Below, one piece after another: positions 1,018 to 9,158 of a stretch of 39,545 bases of DNA. Below the pieces are notes generated by a model. The model did no database searches, was not told where the DNA came from, and saw only the letters and a program-made list of their open reading frames with translations. Position numbers and translations under genes: made by a program. The DNA is from Aquificaceae bacterium (GTDB taxonomy: Bacteria; Aquificota; Aquificia; Aquificales; Aquificaceae): NCBI GenBank assembly GCA_026414575.1, contig JAOAIS010000005.1:1-39545 (forward strand), in the 5' to 3' direction. Position 1 is the first letter of the stretch; each line of letters opens with the position of its first letter.

Positions 1018-1078
1018 TTGAGTTAAAAAGTTCTAGAATCACAGTATAATAAAAACACCTGAATAAAAGGAGGTGTAT
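1018..1078 (+). promoter_or_regulatory. Promoter and ribosome binding site of the dapL operon
   Basis: A perfect -10 hexamer TATAAT lies at 1045-1050. The upstream -35 is weak: GTTAAA at 1022-1027 gives a 17-bp spacer, while TTGAGT at 1018-1023 would need 21 bp. A strong Shine-Dalgarno sequence, AAGGAGGTG, sits a few bases before the ATG at 1081, leaving a leader of about 25 bases. Confidence 0.6.
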
Positions 1079-1080
1079 GT

Positions 1081-2244
1081 ATGCTTGAATACGCCCAGAG
1101 GATAAGGAGCCTTCCTCCATACCTTTTTGCCCAGATTGACCAAAAAAAGAGGGAAAAGCTGGCTCAGGGTGTTGACCTTATTGACCTTGGCGTAGGAGAC
1201 CCAGACCTTCCAACGCCAACACCCATAGTAGAGGCCATGAAAAGGGCGGTAGAAAAACCAGAACATCATAGATACCCTTCCTACGAGGGCATGCTTTCCT
1301 TCAGACAGGCGGTAGCGGACTGGTATAAAAGGCGTTTTGGCGTAGAGCTTGACCCAGCTTTGGAGGTGGTCACCCTAATAGGTTCAAAGGAAGGCATAGC
1401 TCACTTCCCTCTTGCCTTTATTGACCCGGGGGACGTTGTTCTTTGTCCAGACCCTGCATACCCCGTCTACAAGATAGGAACATTGTTTGCTGGGGGCGAG
1501 CCTTACATCTTGCCCCTGAAGGAAGAAAACGCCTTCTTGCCAGACTTTAGGAAGGTTCCGCAGGATGTGCTAAAGAGGGCAAAGATTATATGGATAAACT
1601 ATCCCAACAACCCTACCTCTGCGACGGCCGATGAAGCCTTCTACAGAGAGTTAATAGACTGGGCAAGGGAGCACAGTATAATAGTGGCTTCTGACCTTGC
1701 CTACTCGGAGGTGTACTTTGGTGACAAAAAACCCATGTCTATACTCCAGATAGAGGGGGCCAAGGAGGTGGCCATAGAGTTCCACTCCCTATCCAAAACC
1801 TTTAACATGACGGGCTGGCGTCTTGGTATGGCGGTGGGCAATAAAAACCTGATAGCGGGCTTGGGAAAGGTAAAGACAAATGTGGATTCGGGACAGTTTC
1901 AGGCTATTCAGGAAGCCGGCATTACAGCCCTGAAGCTTCCTGAGGAGGAACTGCATAAGATAAGGGATGTTTACGGAGAGAGGAGAAGGGTTATGGTGGA
2001 GGCTCTGGATAGGGTCGGACTCGAAGTCTTTAAATCTGATGCCACCTTCTACTTATGGGTGAAGGTGCCAAAGGGCTACAGCTCTGCAAGTTTTGTTTCA
2101 ATGCTTTTGGATGAGTGCGGTATAGTATGCACTCCCGGCAACGGCTTTGGTGAGCATGGAGAGGGTTACTTCAGGATTTCTTTGACTGTCCCCACCAGTA
2201 GGCTTCTTGAGGCGGTAGACAGAATCGGATCTCTGAAGCTATGA
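1081..2244 (+). CDS. dapL: LL-diaminopimelate aminotransferase (PLP class I/II)
   Basis: This 387-residue protein is a fold-type I, PLP-dependent class I/II aminotransferase. The Schiff-base lysine is Lys239 in SLSKTFNMTGWRLG, and the IWINYPNNPT segment supplies the usual PLP-contacting Asn/Pro residues. The N-terminus, with IDLGVGDPDLPTP and YPSYEGMLSFRQAVA, matches the DapL branch, which transfers an amino group from glutamate to tetrahydrodipicolinate to make LL-diaminopimelate for lysine and peptidoglycan. The closest alternatives are other aspartate/alanine-type aminotransferases of the same family, so substrate is inferred. It is the first gene of an operon: its stop overlaps the start of the transporter gene (ATGA). 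The ATG is well supported by an AAGGAGGTG site. Confidence 0.8.
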   Translation: MLEYAQRIRSLPPYLFAQIDQKKREKLAQGVDLIDLGVGDPDLPTPTPIVEAMKRAVEKPEHHRYPSYEGMLSFRQAVADWYKRRFGVELDPALEVVTLIGSKEGIAHFPLAFIDPGDVVLCPDPAYPVYKIGTLFAGGEPYILPLKEENAFLPDFRKVPQDVLKRAKIIWINYPNNPTSATADEAFYRELIDWAREHSIIVASDLAYSEVYFGDKKPMSILQIEGAKEVAIEFHSLSKTFNMTGWRLGMAVGNKNLIAGLGKVKTNVDSGQFQAIQEAGITALKLPEEELHKIRDVYGERRRVMVEALDRVGLEVFKSDATFYLWVKVPKGYSSASFVSMLLDECGIVCTPGNGFGEHGEGYFRISLTVPTSRLLEAVDRIGSLKL

Positions 2245-3746
2245 AGAAGAGGGAAATTTGGGCTTCGAGGGTAGGACTTATCTTCGCAGCCGCGGGCAAC
2301 GCGGTGGGACTTGGTAATCTATTAAGGTTTCCTTCCAAGGTTGCCCTCTATGGCGGTGGTGCTTTCATGGTGCCTTACTTTGTGGCTCTTTTCCTTCTTG
2401 GCATACCTCTGATGATACTCGAGTGGGTCATAGGGAGATATGCAGGTGCAAGGGGACACGGCTCCATGACGGGCATAATGGGTTCTCTGTTCCACCATGC
2501 CAACTGGGCAAGGGTTCTGGGCTCCTTGGGCGTCGCCATACCTTTTCTTATAGTATGCTACTATATCTACATAGAGTCCTGGACTCTGGGTTTCGCCTTC
2601 TTTTCTCTCCTTGGCCAGATACCAGAACCAGTAGCAAGCAGCGACCCAAAGACGGCCATGACACCCTATGTGGAGTTTTTTAAGAGCTATACCGCTCCAT
2701 CTCCCGTCGCCATATTTTTTCTTCTTGTTACCCTCTTAATAAACTGGTACATACTCCAGAGGGGCGTCGTAAAGGGCATAGAGTTTACAGCCAAGCTCGG
2801 TATACCTGCCCTACTTTTAATGGGTATTTTTCTGGCGGTTGTATCCCTTTCCATAAGGGGGGGCAAGGGTTTTGAGGGTTTACTTTACATATACACTCCA
2901 GATTTTAGCAGAATATGGGACCCACATGTGTGGCTCGAAGCCTCTGGTCAGATATTCTTTACCCTCTCTCTGGGCATGGGTGCTATAGCTACTTACGCAA
3001 GTTATGTAAAGGCAAGGGAAGATGTGCTAAAGGCTGGACTCTGGACTGCTGGCATAAACGAGTTTGTTGAAGTGGTAATAGGTGCCAGCATAGCCATACC
3101 TGCCGCCTTCGCCATGTTCGGCGCTCTTGCGGTGCCAGAGCTTGCCAAAGAGGGCACCTTTAGGCTTGGTTTTATGTCCATGCCCGCAGTCCTCATGGCT
3201 CTGCCCTTTGATTGGCTTCTTTCGGCCCTTTGGTTTTTACTGCTTTTCATAGCAGCATTAACATCCTCCCTTGCTCTTATACAACCCCTCATATCCCTCT
3301 TTGAGGATGAAATGAGATGGAAGCATTCTAAGGCTGTGAATGTTTCCATGCTTATGGTAAGCGTAGGCGCTTTTCTCTCTGCCTTCTTACCTGGCTTTAT
3401 TGATGAGCTGGACTTCTGGGCTGGAACCTTTATGCTTGTCTTTTTTGCTCTTGTGGAGATAATAGTATTCGTGTGGATATTCGGTGTTCACAAGTTCCAT
3501 CATGAGCTAACAAGGGATGTTTTTATGAAGGTGCCCAAGGGGTTTGTTTATTTCTTTGCAATCACATCCCCCATATTCCTCGTTGCCCTGCTCTATCAGT
3601 GGGGTGTTTTGCAACTGCCTAAAGTTGTTGCCAGTGCGGACTCTACCGTGGTAATAGCAAGGCTCTTTATCCTATCTACTCTGGTTTTTCTTGCCTTTGT
3701 TGCGGTTGATAGCAGAAGAAGATATCTCTCTGGACCCCATCTATGA
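2241..3746 (+). CDS. Sodium-dependent symporter, NSS (SNF) family
   Basis: This 501-residue, very hydrophobic protein has about twelve predicted membrane segments. Its first helix carries the NSS signature (GNAVGLGNLLRFP, then YGGGAFMVPY), which in the Aquifex homologue LeuT lines the sodium and amino-acid sites. NSS transporters couple sodium entry to uptake of amino acids or amines across the inner membrane; the substrate here cannot be read from the sequence. It overlaps dapL by four bases at its start and the CBS/Cache gene at its end, so the three are very likely cotranscribed and probably handle a related small molecule. It lacks the large extracellular loops of animal neurotransmitter transporters, as expected for bacterial members. 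Confidence 0.88.
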   Translation: MKKREIWASRVGLIFAAAGNAVGLGNLLRFPSKVALYGGGAFMVPYFVALFLLGIPLMILEWVIGRYAGARGHGSMTGIMGSLFHHANWARVLGSLGVAIPFLIVCYYIYIESWTLGFAFFSLLGQIPEPVASSDPKTAMTPYVEFFKSYTAPSPVAIFFLLVTLLINWYILQRGVVKGIEFTAKLGIPALLLMGIFLAVVSLSIRGGKGFEGLLYIYTPDFSRIWDPHVWLEASGQIFFTLSLGMGAIATYASYVKAREDVLKAGLWTAGINEFVEVVIGASIAIPAAFAMFGALAVPELAKEGTFRLGFMSMPAVLMALPFDWLLSALWFLLLFIAALTSSLALIQPLISLFEDEMRWKHSKAVNVSMLMVSVGAFLSAFLPGFIDELDFWAGTFMLVFFALVEIIVFVWIFGVHKFHHELTRDVFMKVPKGFVYFFAITSPIFLVALLYQWGVLQLPKVVASADSTVVIARLFILSTLVFLAFVAVDSRRRYLSGPHL

Positions 3747-5023
3747 AGGAGTTCGAACTTTCACACTTAGCCACTGGTGTTCCGGGAATAGATTTCAACC
3801 TAAGTGTAATGGAAGCTCTAAGAGCTTTTGAAGAGTACGGCATATACGATTTCCTTGTGGTGGTGAGAGAAAACATACCCATAGGTATAGTTAACAAACT
3901 TGACCTCATAAAGGCTCAACATAAAGACTACCTCACCGTTGGAGATTTGGCACGTCCACTCATGAAGCTAAAAGTCTCGAACATAAAAAGTGAAGAGCTT
4001 GCCTATCTTTTGGATTTTTTTAATTCTTCAAAAAACCCCATAATAATCGTGGATAGGAAAGGAGCCTACATGGGTGTTCTTTTTTACCATGTGGTCCTTC
4101 ACCATATAAGCCTTTTCAAGGAGATTACTATACCCGTGTTTCAAAAACTTAGGTCCATGTTTGGTCAGGAATACTACTTCTACTGCTTCTACATAAGCGG
4201 TGCTAAAGAATTTGGTTCATCGGGCAGGGAGAGCCTTCAGAGAATACTCTATGAGGGCGTAAAAAACAGCATACCTGGCGATGTTGGCATTTCTTACGAG
4301 GAGGGTGAAATATACGCCCTATCCAAGGTCAGAATGAAAGAAGAAGAGCTAAAGGCTTTTTATGAGGAGTTCCATAGGGAATTTACGCTTCTCTATTCTG
4401 AGGCAAGACCTGTGTACTTGTATGGCTATTGTTTTTCTCTTAAGGAGGTGCAGAACTTTGAGGAGTTTTTTAGATTGAGCTCGGACCTTAAGAAGAGGAT
4501 GGAGGATGTGCATGATGCCTCCTTTTTCATATTTCAAGGCGATAAGTCTTCCGTTGTGCTGTGCGAATACGAAAGGAGGGAGTTTATAAACCAGATAAAG
4601 CTAAAGATAAAACAGGAATTTGAAAAAATCGTGGAAGGTCTGAAAAGGATAGACAGAGACCTCTGGGAAATAGCCCTCTATGACTTTTTTAAGAACTATC
4701 CCTACTTTGAGCTTTTTTACATCATAGGAGAGAGCGGTCTACAGGTTTCCAACAATGTGGTCAACCCAAAGCTAACCTATCCTGTCAAGGTGGGCAAAAA
4801 GGGTGCAGACAGGTCTGAAAAAGAATACTTTAAAAAAGCAGGCTACGAGGATGTCTTTATTTCTAACATATACATATCTCAGGCCACTGACGACTTTTGC
4901 ATAACAGTTTCAAAAAAGTTCAGCTACGGTGGGAAGTCTTATGTGCTTGCGGGCGACATAAACTACAGAGAAATCCACAAGTTGGTGAAAGGTTATGCCA
5001 GTGCAGGCAAGGCTGATAGGTAG
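3743..5023 (+). CDS. CBS-pair / degenerate GGDEF-like / C-terminal Cache (PDC) sensor
   Basis: This 426-residue protein has no signal peptide or membrane helix, so it should be cytoplasmic. Residues 10-125 look like two CBS modules (for example FLVVVRENIPIGIVNKLDL and PIIIVDRKGAYMGVLFYHVV), which usually bind adenine nucleotides. Residues about 145-268 have the strand/helix rhythm of a GGDEF domain, but YEEGE (185-189) replaces the catalytic GGDEF and the metal aspartates are missing, so it should not make c-di-GMP. Residues about 282-418 resemble a Cache/PDC ligand-binding domain (YIIGESGLQVSN, DRSEKEYF, ISNIYISQATDDFCITVS). Cache domains are usually extracytoplasmic, so an intracellular one is unusual, although YkuI-type proteins give a precedent. 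It sits between a transporter gene and a deacetylase gene, overlapping both. The GGDEF-like assignment is my inference. Confidence 0.65.
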   Translation: MKEFELSHLATGVPGIDFNLSVMEALRAFEEYGIYDFLVVVRENIPIGIVNKLDLIKAQHKDYLTVGDLARPLMKLKVSNIKSEELAYLLDFFNSSKNPIIIVDRKGAYMGVLFYHVVLHHISLFKEITIPVFQKLRSMFGQEYYFYCFYISGAKEFGSSGRESLQRILYEGVKNSIPGDVGISYEEGEIYALSKVRMKEEELKAFYEEFHREFTLLYSEARPVYLYGYCFSLKEVQNFEEFFRLSSDLKKRMEDVHDASFFIFQGDKSSVVLCEYERREFINQIKLKIKQEFEKIVEGLKRIDRDLWEIALYDFFKNYPYFELFYIIGESGLQVSNNVVNPKLTYPVKVGKKGADRSEKEYFKKAGYEDVFISNIYISQATDDFCITVSKKFSYGGKSYVLAGDINYREIHKLVKGYASAGKADR

Positions 5024-6128
5024 TTTTAACTACAAGAGCCTTAGGTATACAAAAAACCATCCCTTAAGGATTCCAAGGGTTTCTTTGCTTTTGGAGCTTC
5101 TCTTCTCCCTTGGGCTTTTGGAGGAGGGGGAGCTGGTAGAGAGTAGACCTGCCCTATGGGATGAGCTGATTCTCTTTCATGAGGAAGAATACCTGAAGGC
5201 TCTCGAAGAGTGCGACCGCTGTATGTGTGTGAAGGACGGATACAGAGAGAGGTTTAATATAGGCACCTACGAAAACCCTATCTCCCCAGCTATGTGGAAG
5301 GGGTCTCTTCTTGCCACGGGTTCTTCTATTCAGGTGGTGGAGATGTTTCTTGGAGGCTCTATAGCCTTTAACCCTGCAGGAGGTATGCACCACGCCTACC
5401 CCTCAAGGGCAAGGGGTTTTTGCTTCATAAACGACCCGGGCATAGCTATCCAGTATCTTCTTGAAAGAGGCTTTAAGAGAGTGCTTTATGTGGATTTGGA
5501 TGCTCATCACTGCGATGGTGTGCAGGACTTTTTCTATGAAGAGGATAGGGTTTTTGTGCTTTCCTTGCATCAATCTCCCGATTATGCCTTCCCCTTTAAC
5601 AAGGGTTACCTGCAGGAGAGGGGCTCTGGCAGAGGTAAGGGCTACAATCTGAACCTACCCCTACCCCCAGGCATAAAAGATGGAGAACTCCTTTATGTTC
5701 TTGAGAGAACTCTCCCCCTTGTCAGGGATGTGTTCAAACCAGAGGTCTATGTGCTACAGCTCGGCACTGACATGCTTAGAGAAGACTACCTTTCCAAGTT
5801 TGAGGTCTCCAACGGTGGCTTTCTCAGGGCCTTTGACCTTGTAAGGGAGGTGCTTGGTGAAGGCATTTATCTTGGCGGTGGTGGGTACCATCCCGTAGCT
5901 CTGGCAAGAGCATGGGCTCTTCTGTGGTGTAGGATGAGCAACAGACCCATACAGGACAGGCTTACACCCGAGGCAAGAAAGGTGCTCCTGTCAGTGGACT
6001 TTGAAGAGTTTGAAGAGGATGCAAGCAGGTGCTACATGTACGAGAAACTCCTTGACCCACCAAACTACGGCGAAGTTCGGGAAAAAGTAAAAGGCTTAGT
6101 GGATGAGGCGCTGAGCTATTATCTCTGA
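4995..6128 (+). CDS. acuC: Histone-deacetylase-like amidohydrolase (HDLP/AcuC family)
   Basis: This 377-residue protein is a class I HDAC-superfamily zinc amidohydrolase and a clear relative of Aquifex aeolicus HDLP, with the same length, the same N-terminal KNHPLxIPRVSLLL and the same catalytic blocks. The visible active site is complete: tandem His132-His133, the charge-relay and zinc-ligand stretch Asp167/Asp169/His171 (DLDAHHCDGVQ), Asp259 (LGTD) and Tyr298 (GGGGY). It should remove acyl groups from lysine-like or polyamine amides; the natural bacterial substrate is not established. The gene overlaps the upstream sensor gene by 29 bases, so the two are translationally linked. The ATG at 4995 is kept because it aligns with the HDLP start. 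Confidence 0.93.
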   Translation: MPVQARLIGSFNYKSLRYTKNHPLRIPRVSLLLELLFSLGLLEEGELVESRPALWDELILFHEEEYLKALEECDRCMCVKDGYRERFNIGTYENPISPAMWKGSLLATGSSIQVVEMFLGGSIAFNPAGGMHHAYPSRARGFCFINDPGIAIQYLLERGFKRVLYVDLDAHHCDGVQDFFYEEDRVFVLSLHQSPDYAFPFNKGYLQERGSGRGKGYNLNLPLPPGIKDGELLYVLERTLPLVRDVFKPEVYVLQLGTDMLREDYLSKFEVSNGGFLRAFDLVREVLGEGIYLGGGGYHPVALARAWALLWCRMSNRPIQDRLTPEARKVLLSVDFEEFEEDASRCYMYEKLLDPPNYGEVREKVKGLVDEALSYYL

Positions 6129-6327: not shown

Positions 6328-8349
6328 TTATAGAGGGCGCTCAGCCTTATCTTCCTCTCCTTCAAGCATGTCTTCAGAAACAACCCTATTCTTACCTAAT
6401 TTCTTTGCCATGTATAGGGCTTTATCCGCCCTGTTGATAAGACTTTCTATGCTCTCCCCTCTTCTGTAATATGCCACACCCGAACTCAGAGTTATCTTTG
6501 GGACTTCACCCACCTTGAGCCTTTCCGCCTCAAGCCTTATCCTCTCTGCCACAAACCTTGCTTCCTCAAGCCCCGTATATGGTAGTATCACCAAGAATTC
6601 TTCACCGCCCCATCTTGCAGGTATGTCCGCAGACCTAATGTTGCCCTTTATAACTTCTGCCACAGCCTTGAGGACCTTGTCACCCACCTCATGTCCGTAT
6701 GTGTCGTTTACTTTTTTGAAGTTATCCGCATCCATTAGTATGAGGCTAAACTCCTCCCCGTACCTGTCTGACCTTTCCTTCGCCTTCTTGAACTCTTCCA
6801 TGGCATGGCTTCTGTTGTATAGTCCCGTAAGGGTATCGGTGGTCGCCATGCGATATAGCTCCATTTCCATTATCTTGCGCTCGGTGATGTCGGTTACTAC
6901 TACGACAGTTCCCTCGTAGAGGTTTTTCTGAAGTATATGTCTTATGCTCACATGCACGTCCACCTTCCTTCCATCCTTTGCTACAAAAACTTCGTCTATG
7001 GATAGCTCCTCCCTTCTCTTTATAGCTTTGTATATGGGGCAATCCTCAATGGGGCCTGAATGATAGTGAACCAGTTGGTGCATTACCTGACCCAGCATCT
7101 CCTCCTTAGTGTATCCAAGCATGGCTGCCCCAGCTTCGTTCACAAACTTTATCCTGCCCTCCTCGTCCAGCAAAAAGAGACCACTTCCCATGCTCGCGGA
7201 TATAGTATAAATACGCCTGTAGGCAAAGGTGGTCTCCCTGACCTGTTTTATGTAGAGGAATACGAGAAAGGCAAAAAGCCCCGCTCCAAAGAAGGAAAGC
7301 ATGCTAAGGAAGTAAAACTCCCTCTGAACTGCCTCCATGTCTTTGGCCCTTGAGAAGGTAAGCATGAGCCCAGCTGGCTCCTTGCCTTCATATTCATAGA
7401 GTTTTACAACTCCTACCACATATAGCCTACCTTCCTTTTCAAGGAGCAAAGAGGTGTTACCTTCTTTAGAAAGGACGCTTCTTAGGCGCTCTTTCAGAAG
7501 TGGTAAAAGTCCTCTGAATTCTTCCGTAAGGGGTAGCTTTTCCGAAAGGTTCATCAGACCGTTGGTAAGCGGACAGGTGGTGATTAGCTCCCCTACATCC
7601 TCGTCGGGCTTTGGCTCTTCTTTCTCGAAATACCAACCTTCAAGACCTGGGACTGGGGCGTAGTAACGTAGCGCAAGCTCTTTTTCTGTCCTTTCCTCAA
7701 GAAGCTTACCGTTTAACAGTAATACGAGGTCTCCGTGAGGTGCAACCCTGAGAAACCCCTTCCTGAAAATGTTTACGGGCCTTGACATTTCAACCGCACC
7801 CAGATGCCTACCCTCGGGTGTGATGATGGGGTAGGCAAACCTAAGCCCGCTGAAAATTCTACCAACCGCAAAGCCAGCGGCAGGTTTTTTCTCCCTGTTA
7901 GCAAGAACTATTGGCAATTTCAAACTACTTAGGTCATCCCCGTGCATACTGGGCGCATGTAATCTCAAGAAGCTTCTGTTGTCCGGAAGAGCAAATTGGA
8001 ATTCCCATATGGTCTCTGTCCCTTTGAGGTCTTCATACTCTCTGTAAAGCTTTCTAAAGAGCAAGGTCCTTGCTTCTTCTTCTTTGCCCCGAAGGGCAAG
8101 CTCAAGAATTTCGTATATTTCCCTCTTGGATACATGCTCTCTAAAAATGCGGTCAAAAACCTCCTGACTGGATGACTGAAGTAGTCGGTAGGTAGCTTCC
8201 GCATTTAGCAAGTTTTTGTGGAGAATTGCTTCCTGAATTTGGTCTCTAAAGAATTTAAAAATGTAAAGAGCCGGCAGAAGGAGAATGAAAAAAACAAAAA
8301 CCGCCGTCCAATAACTCAAAAAAATCCGGCCCAATCCGTAGCTTTTCAT
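6328..8349 (-). CDS. Diguanylate cyclase: dCache-PAS-GGDEF membrane sensor
   Basis: This 673-residue protein should convert two GTP to cyclic di-GMP in response to an external signal. Residues 12-32 and 346-367 are membrane helices flanking a periplasmic region (about 45-335) resembling the dCache_3 type (LRLHAPSMHGDDLS, then VGRIFSGLRFAYPI and GRHLGAVEMS). A PAS domain follows (383-490), then a GGDEF domain (504-665). The active-site motif is intact as GGEEF at 581-585, and the inhibitory I-site RxxD is present as RSAD at 572-575, so the enzyme is probably active and product-inhibited. Its start overlaps the stop of the upstream binding-protein gene (ATGA), so that periplasmic protein may feed it a ligand. 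No effector gene lies nearby. Confidence 0.9.
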   Translation of the reverse strand: MKSYGLGRIFLSYWTAVFVFFILLLPALYIFKFFRDQIQEAILHKNLLNAEATYRLLQSSSQEVFDRIFREHVSKREIYEILELALRGKEEEARTLLFRKLYREYEDLKGTETIWEFQFALPDNRSFLRLHAPSMHGDDLSSLKLPIVLANREKKPAAGFAVGRIFSGLRFAYPIITPEGRHLGAVEMSRPVNIFRKGFLRVAPHGDLVLLLNGKLLEERTEKELALRYYAPVPGLEGWYFEKEEPKPDEDVGELITTCPLTNGLMNLSEKLPLTEEFRGLLPLLKERLRSVLSKEGNTSLLLEKEGRLYVVGVVKLYEYEGKEPAGLMLTFSRAKDMEAVQREFYFLSMLSFFGAGLFAFLVFLYIKQVRETTFAYRRIYTISASMGSGLFLLDEEGRIKFVNEAGAAMLGYTKEEMLGQVMHQLVHYHSGPIEDCPIYKAIKRREELSIDEVFVAKDGRKVDVHVSIRHILQKNLYEGTVVVVTDITERKIMEMELYRMATTDTLTGLYNRSHAMEEFKKAKERSDRYGEEFSLILMDADNFKKVNDTYGHEVGDKVLKAVAEVIKGNIRSADIPARWGGEEFLVILPYTGLEEARFVAERIRLEAERLKVGEVPKITLSSGVAYYRRGESIESLINRADKALYMAKKLGKNRVVSEDMLEGEEDKAERPL

Positions 8350-9158
8350 TTGGGTATATGTCTTTTGTATTTTTCCACTATATTAAAGTCCTCGTCACTA
8401 ACCTTGGAAAAGCCGTATCTACCCTCCGCGAGCTTTTTTTGCTCCTCGGGTGTTAGGGAAAAGAGAGCTTCCTCTATCTTTCTTATAACCTCCGGCGGAA
8501 GGGTTTTTGTGTTTGCTACCAAAGGAAGGCTGGGCCAGCGCGGAGACTCTCCAAGGGGTCTAAGACCAAAGCCTTTGTATTTTTCAAAAACCTTTCTGGA
8601 AACCATACCCGCCCCATATTCTCGAGCTAACACCGCCTTAACCACATCCTCATGGGTTGGCAAAAACCTGTAACCCAGTTTTTCAAGGCTTATGTTTTTT
8701 TCTGAAAGTATTATGCTGGCACTGAAATATCCGCAGGTGCTCATCTTCTGGGGAAGGGCAATGGGTCCCACCATATCCTTTAACCTGTGTGGACCATCCA
8801 CGGCACTAAAGAGTATGCAGGAGTAAGAGGCACCCTTGGGGTCTCTATTGAAGGAGGCTATGGCTTTTGCGTGCTGGTATTTTTCTTTAAGTTGGTAGTA
8901 GGTAAGTGTACACATGGTTATGAGGTCAATCTCACCCTTCATAAACTTTTCAAAGAGCTCTTCATAGCTTCTGTAGTGGTACATCTCAAAGGTAAATCCC
9001 GTCTTTTTTTCAAGAAGCTTAAGCAGGGGAGAGTATGCCCTTATGAGTTCTTCTCTGTATGCACCCGGAAGGGGCGCAAACCTGATCGTTTCAGATAGAG
9101 CTAAATCTATAGAAAGGAATACCAAGAGCAAAAGACATAAACGACTTTTTAAAACCAC
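8346..9158 (-). CDS. PhnD-like periplasmic substrate-binding protein (orphan)
   Basis: This 270-residue protein begins with a signal peptide (hydrophobic LCLLLLVFLSIDLALS, likely cleaved near residue 22) and then shows the fold of phosphate/phosphonate-binding PhnD proteins (TIRFAPLP, then the helix-rich YSPLLKLLEKKTG, and EGRYGF near the end). PhnD proteins normally hand phosphonate or phosphite to an ABC importer. No permease or ATPase gene is next to this one. Instead it is the first gene of a two-gene operon with a membrane diguanylate cyclase, so a sensory role is more likely than transport. The ligand is unknown. It starts with GTG at 9158, only six bases downstream of a TATAAT, so its mRNA is probably leaderless. 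Confidence 0.8.
   Translation of the reverse strand: MVLKSRLCLLLLVFLSIDLALSETIRFAPLPGAYREELIRAYSPLLKLLEKKTGFTFEMYHYRSYEELFEKFMKGEIDLITMCTLTYYQLKEKYQHAKAIASFNRDPKGASYSCILFSAVDGPHRLKDMVGPIALPQKMSTCGYFSASIILSEKNISLEKLGYRFLPTHEDVVKAVLAREYGAGMVSRKVFEKYKGFGLRPLGESPRWPSLPLVANTKTLPPEVIRKIEEALFSLTPEEQKKLAEGRYGFSKVSDEDFNIVEKYKRHIPK

Follow-up and report, generated by a model that had tools for sequence, protein, structure and literature searches.

What would bring an ortholog of HDLP, the structural model for human HDACs, into the same operon as a gene for lysine biosynthesis, a relative of LeuT, the model for neurotransmitter transporters, and a soluble sensor protein? This question is raised by a contig of 39,545 nucleotides from a hot-spring bacterium of the family Aquificaceae (JAOAIS010000005.1, hereafter called the window), and no paper linking LeuT, HDLP and DapL in one operon was found in the literature. 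An earlier note, made from the letters of this DNA, had described four genes with overlapping ends and had interpreted them as a system that takes up, senses and deacylates an N-acylated lysine-like compound or an acetylpolyamine, with the aminotransferase recovering nitrogen. The gene assignments in that note were confirmed and in places refined by the analysis presented here, but the catabolic interpretation was not supported. Overall, the locus is a partly ancestral operon of known parts combined with one undescribed sensor family.

The four open reading frames are all open and co-directional on the forward strand (Table 1), and the overlapping ends reported previously are indeed present, measuring 4, 4 and 29 bp in the window. 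The gene that follows HDLP lies on the opposite strand. No lysine riboswitch or other Rfam structured RNA was matched upstream of dapL. The approximately 1 kb located 5' of this gene (positions 1-1080) contains no convincing gene, although a short ORF at 363-614 might be a remnant. Convergent with the operon, the reverse strand at 6328-9158 encodes a GGDEF/PAS-type membrane protein and a PhnD-like binding protein with a 4-bp overlap, and this pair, judged by eye, is likely a ligand-sensing diguanylate cyclase pair.

Table 1. Features of the operon and of the region immediately upstream, numbered by position in the window.
Feature	Position	Strand	Remarks
Promoter-like TTAAAA-16-TATAAT, upstream of operon	1023..1050	+	10/12 matches; such sites no more numerous than in shuffles
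Shine-Dalgarno GGAGGTG of dapL (strong)	1069..1075	+	Direct sequence reading
dapL, LL-diaminopimelate aminotransferase, 387 aa	1081..2244	+	TIGR03540 equivalog above cut-off; DapD/DapH absent, DapF present in relatives
LeuT-subfamily Na+ symporter, 501 aa	2241..3746	+	SNF family; LeuT best PDB match
CBS-CBS / dead GGDEF-like palm / cytosolic Cache protein (sensor), 426 aa	3743..5023	+	Aquificaceae-specific family
Sensor CBS pair, residues 1-125	3743..4117	+	Canonical nucleotide-binding S/T, D not conserved
Sensor degenerate GGDEF-like palm, residues ~131-274	4133..4564	+	Without catalytic residues
Sensor Cache (YkuI_C/dCache_1-like), residues ~305-417	4655..4993	+	Most conserved part; amino-acid-receptor-like pocket
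HDLP ortholog, class-I Zn lysine deacetylase, 377 aa	4995..6128	+	Catalytic residues intact

The product of the first gene scores 651 bits against the DapC_direct/LL-DAP aminotransferase model TIGR03540 (cut-off 593), in agreement with the aminotransferase type named earlier. In a survey of 10 near-complete Aquificaceae relatives, from which the window genome (75% complete) was left out, DapF was present, whereas DapD was found in none of the 10 and DapH in none above its cut-off. The equivalog match and the lack of DapD and DapH resemble established DapL-type lysine biosynthesis, and DapL is likely the biosynthetic step to DAP and lysine by the only DAP route found. The difference here is that dapL is clustered with genes for a sensor and a deacetylase. 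Given this DapL route, with DapF present and DapD and DapH absent, no acylated DAP would be expected.

The second gene product, previously noted only as a sodium symporter, matches the SNF family and is specifically a relative of LeuT, which is its best PDB match (E about 1e-131) and, in the form of the Aquifex aeolicus protein (2a65), about 46% identical to it. The gates and most of the pocket are retained, including the residues of the Na1 and Na2 sites, R30, Y108, F253, D404 and E290, and the substitutions that have occurred in the pocket (V104I, F259M and I359L in LeuT numbering) all preserve hydrophobic character. The V104 position determines how large the pocket of a LeuT-fold carrier is (PMC5809530), and the transporters form two subclades, one with V104/F259 (Aquifex-type) and the other with I104/M259 (window type). 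Thus, the window transporter differs from 2a65 by its membership in a separate subclade (I104, M259, L359) and by its operon position. Its substrate, as suggested by the pocket residues, is likely a hydrophobic alpha-amino acid. Two further observations concern this transporter family. In the ortholog of one genome (G039, locus L076), two Na+-site positions differ, with D replacing Gly20 and I replacing Thr254, so that either the transporter is altered or the sequence is in error. Also, in a distinct genus (g6; G035:C134 175-2750, locus L035), an HDLP gene is immediately preceded by a window-type LeuT gene at a locus without dapL and with no detectable sensor, representing a second LeuT-HDLP association.

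The fourth gene was correctly described as a relative of HDLP. It yields a Hist_deacetyl match, its best PDB match is HDLP itself (1c3p, E 2.5e-163), and it is about 61% identical to that Aquifex aeolicus protein, with identical catalytic residues. Because the zinc ligands, the His pair, Asp173 and Tyr297 (HDLP numbering) are all kept, the active site is intact, and the gene product is a predicted protein-lysine deacetylase of class I and AcuC type. Bacterial polyamine deacetylases sit in another cluster than these enzymes (PMC11532494).

Taken together, these features make the catabolic interpretation very improbable. In its favor, one operon combines genes for a transporter, a ligand sensor, an amidohydrolase and an aminotransferase. 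However, it is unsupported because DapL appears to be anabolic and its pathway without acyl-DAP intermediates, because the LeuT pocket retains contacts for an alpha-amino group, a carboxylate and a hydrophobic side chain, because the transporter gene is a genus-level insertion that other genera keep elsewhere or, in several cases, lack, and because the class-I HDLP site carries Asp173 and bacterial polyamine deacetylases cluster separately.

The third gene encodes the sensor. The CBS/Cache ligand sensor proposed for it was upheld, in that the window protein gives a CBS match just below the Pfam cut-off and a weak dCache_1 match, and it is cytosolic. Across 37 family members, matches were recovered for CBS in 37/37, for dCache_1 in 33/37 and for YkuI_C in 26/37. 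A third, palm-like domain between the CBS pair and the Cache domain had been missed. In an AlphaFold2 model (mean pLDDT 87), Foldseek ranked CBS pairs first, including that of Geobacillus AcuB, and retrieved one Cache sensor, KinD; beyond the CBS pair, the fit to AcuB is poor (rmsd about 9). The canonical CBS nucleotide-binding S/T and D residues are not conserved over the 37 sensors, a comparison that covers the canonical positions, as distinct from the AcuB-specific Arg33/His34. When folded alone, the middle domain resembles GGDEF domains and further palm cyclases with a probability near 1.0, but at an E of about 0.003. A functional GGDEF diguanylate cyclase was nevertheless rejected, since catalytic residues are missing and the sequence-profile match is not significant: the position of the GGDEF motif reads E-x-G-E-(V/I), and there is no longer an Asp to bind the metal. 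The middle domain is therefore at most a dead palm. No NCBIfam family names the sensor, whose full-length form occurs only in Aquificaceae, where each of 42/42 good genomes carries one copy. It is therefore an undescribed family restricted to Aquificaceae.

Clues to the ligand come from the Cache domain, which is the best-conserved part of the sensor (mean column identity of 71%, compared with 53% for the palm). Among PDB profiles it matches two amino-acid receptors best, Tlp3 and PctA, although weakly (E 0.2-0.9 for PctA). Tyr and Asp at PctA positions Y144 and D173 correspond to the invariant Y377 and D405 of the sensors, W128 and Y129 to Y362 and F363, and R126, which in PctA touches the ligand carboxylate (PMC10104139), to K/R360 in 32/37. 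Position Y121 is occupied by the non-aromatic residues A, S or T. The dCache_1AA signature (Y121, R126, W128, Y129, Y144, D173) is therefore incomplete, with 5/6 positions matched in kind. Because the PctA match is weak and the Y121 position lacks an aromatic residue, the ligand class is uncertain. The sensor shares the Cache fold with YkuI, which joins an EAL domain to a YkuI_C Cache, and with PctA and Tlp3, but it differs from these proteins in being cytosolic and in combining the Cache domain with a CBS pair and a palm that is catalytically dead, without EAL. The sister family has an isolated Cache domain of the same kind on a membrane protein beside amtB (L193 3481-4386, L194 3980-4888). 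These Cache-only proteins were considered as a ligand clue and dropped, as membrane proteins by amtB provide too little information.

A useful precedent is available in Bacillus, where the CBS protein AcuB is encoded beside the deacetylase AcuC, which it binds and inhibits (PMC13121692, PMC13039410). AcuB uses its ACT domain for this and responds to adenine nucleotides, namely AMP (PMC13121692) and Ap4A (PMC13039410), although the two reports, both from 2026, disagree on the effect of Ap4A. As in acuABC, the window carries a gene for a CBS-domain regulator, with an N-terminal CBS (Bateman) pair like that of AcuB, directly before a gene for a class-I HDAC-like deacetylase, and the genome encodes an Acs with the target-lysine motif. 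Unlike acuABC, the unit lacks acuA and is linked to dapL and LeuT, and the sensor has the palm and Cache domains instead of a C-terminal ACT domain. By this comparison, the sensor and HDLP appear to form an independent counterpart of AcuB-AcuC. An AcuB-like response to adenylates is doubtful, given the missing ACT domain and the lack of conservation at the canonical CBS nucleotide positions.

These parallels favor a biosynthetic and regulatory operon rather than a catabolic one, in which the sensor would gate HDLP according to amino-acid supply as AcuB gates AcuC, a reading to which we give a probability of roughly 0.4. It is proposed because both the gene placement and the deacetylase class are AcuB-like, with palm and Cache replacing ACT. 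The sensor would be a soluble adaptor whose Cache domain binds a small amino-acid-type ligand, for example one that LeuT imports or one made through DapL, and whose CBS pair and dead palm might serve as dimerization and output modules. The sensor would then bind co-expressed partners, the likeliest output being the gating of HDLP, such that the acetylation of proteins, acetyl-CoA synthetase possibly among them, would follow amino-acid supply, and DapL made at the same time would lead to lysine and peptidoglycan precursors. A bolder version, in which the CBS-palm-Cache protein founds a new class of cytosolic sensors for amino acids and acts as a direct switch of HDLP, perhaps also of DapL, seems rather unlikely at present.

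The arrangement of these genes in relatives of the window bacterium allows competing explanations to be weighed. Among 64 Aquificaceae genomes, 56 were informative for dapL and the sensor and 54 for the sensor and HDLP. The first two genes directly adjoin in 31/56 and are separated only by LeuT in 12 more, giving 43/56 with dapL-(leuT)-sensor, and HDLP directly follows the sensor in 32/54. The note's own ground for refutation, genes that are not neighbors in related genomes, thus applies only in part: dapL-leuT-sensor-HDLP occurs in the window's genus and the dapL-sensor-HDLP trio without LeuT in three other genera (g3, g4 (Hydrogenobacter) and one genome of g8 (Thermocrinis)), but LeuT is a genus-level insertion, separating dapL from the sensor in no genus but that of the window (and missing in G045), and the genes lie apart from one another in Aquifex aeolicus and Hydrogenobaculum (g5). 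The HDLP gene of Aquifex aeolicus, unlike that of the window, lies outside any operon with dapL, LeuT or the sensor. The operon of the window's genus also turns up on a contig titled 'Acidobacteria bacterium' (L115, RFFP01000035.1), which probably derives from a mislabeled Aquificaceae MAG.

One alternative is that the shared promoter merely serves dosage and that the products have no physical or signaling link. The dispersed genes of Aquifex and Hydrogenobaculum agree with such simple co-expression, in that linkage must be dispensable there. However, the overlapping order recurs from genus to genus although the genes flanking the unit change; because the flanks differ in this way, the retained overlaps appear meaningful, and the persistence of the dapL-sensor overlap over many genera makes this alternative rather unlikely. 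The sensor tree has two large clades, each containing both the dapL-sensor pair and the trio, and therefore the dapL-sensor-HDLP unit, as traced by this tree, was probably ancestral and later broken up.

A different alternative is that the sensor partners or regulates DapL only, thereby controlling lysine and peptidoglycan flux, and that HDLP is a general deacetylase sharing the transcript. The pair of dapL and sensor stands alone in most of g8 and also in g9, g10 and g11; HDLP has been lost in G018 and g10 and relocated in most of g8, g9 and g11, with the sensor still beside dapL. Because the sensor stays with dapL under these circumstances, its primary partner may be DapL. This link is the most persistent one, being kept even where HDLP is absent (G018, G058, G060, G061) or elsewhere, and none of the 64 genomes was seen to keep sensor-HDLP with dapL located elsewhere. 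An amino-acid-type Cache domain would also suit feedback by lysine or DAP. Against this stand the sensor-HDLP adjacency, kept in four genera over both clades, and the common family-restricted range of the two proteins, although their co-distribution may reflect one shared origin rather than a functional link. Regulation of DapL only is a close competitor, if somewhat doubtful, and the gating of HDLP by amino-acid supply is retained as the preferred reading.

In either case, an inherited operon connects the HDLP ortholog with both lysine biosynthesis and a conserved cytosolic sensor, which makes the role of HDLP testable and would be an instance of a CBS protein paired with a deacetylase outside the AcuB family. 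If the bolder version with a direct switch is true, the historic HDLP structure would gain a physiological regulator, and amino-acid supply would be linked to protein acetylation. Acs is a possible target of HDLP: it is present in 40/42 good genomes, with the acetylatable-lysine motif PKTRSGKIMRR in 12/12 copies checked, a motif that is general for Acs and hence no proof.

HDLP orthologs occur in 38/42 good Aquificaceae genomes and are confined to this family, being absent as orthologs from the other two families of the order. Those families and most Aquificaceae have a shorter HDAC paralog, about 35% identical. Complementarity between HDLP and SIR2 was considered and set aside: no good genome lacks both, but the chance probability is about 0.37 and the HDAC paralog is widespread. 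The proximity of the second HDAC paralog to Acs in A. aeolicus was likewise judged a coincidence, since the two are apart in the other complete genomes compared. This second paralog (about 310 aa; for example, G001:C1:1486862-1487617) is found in most Aquificota genomes searched, and both copies aligned carry Asn at the position of HDLP Asp173.
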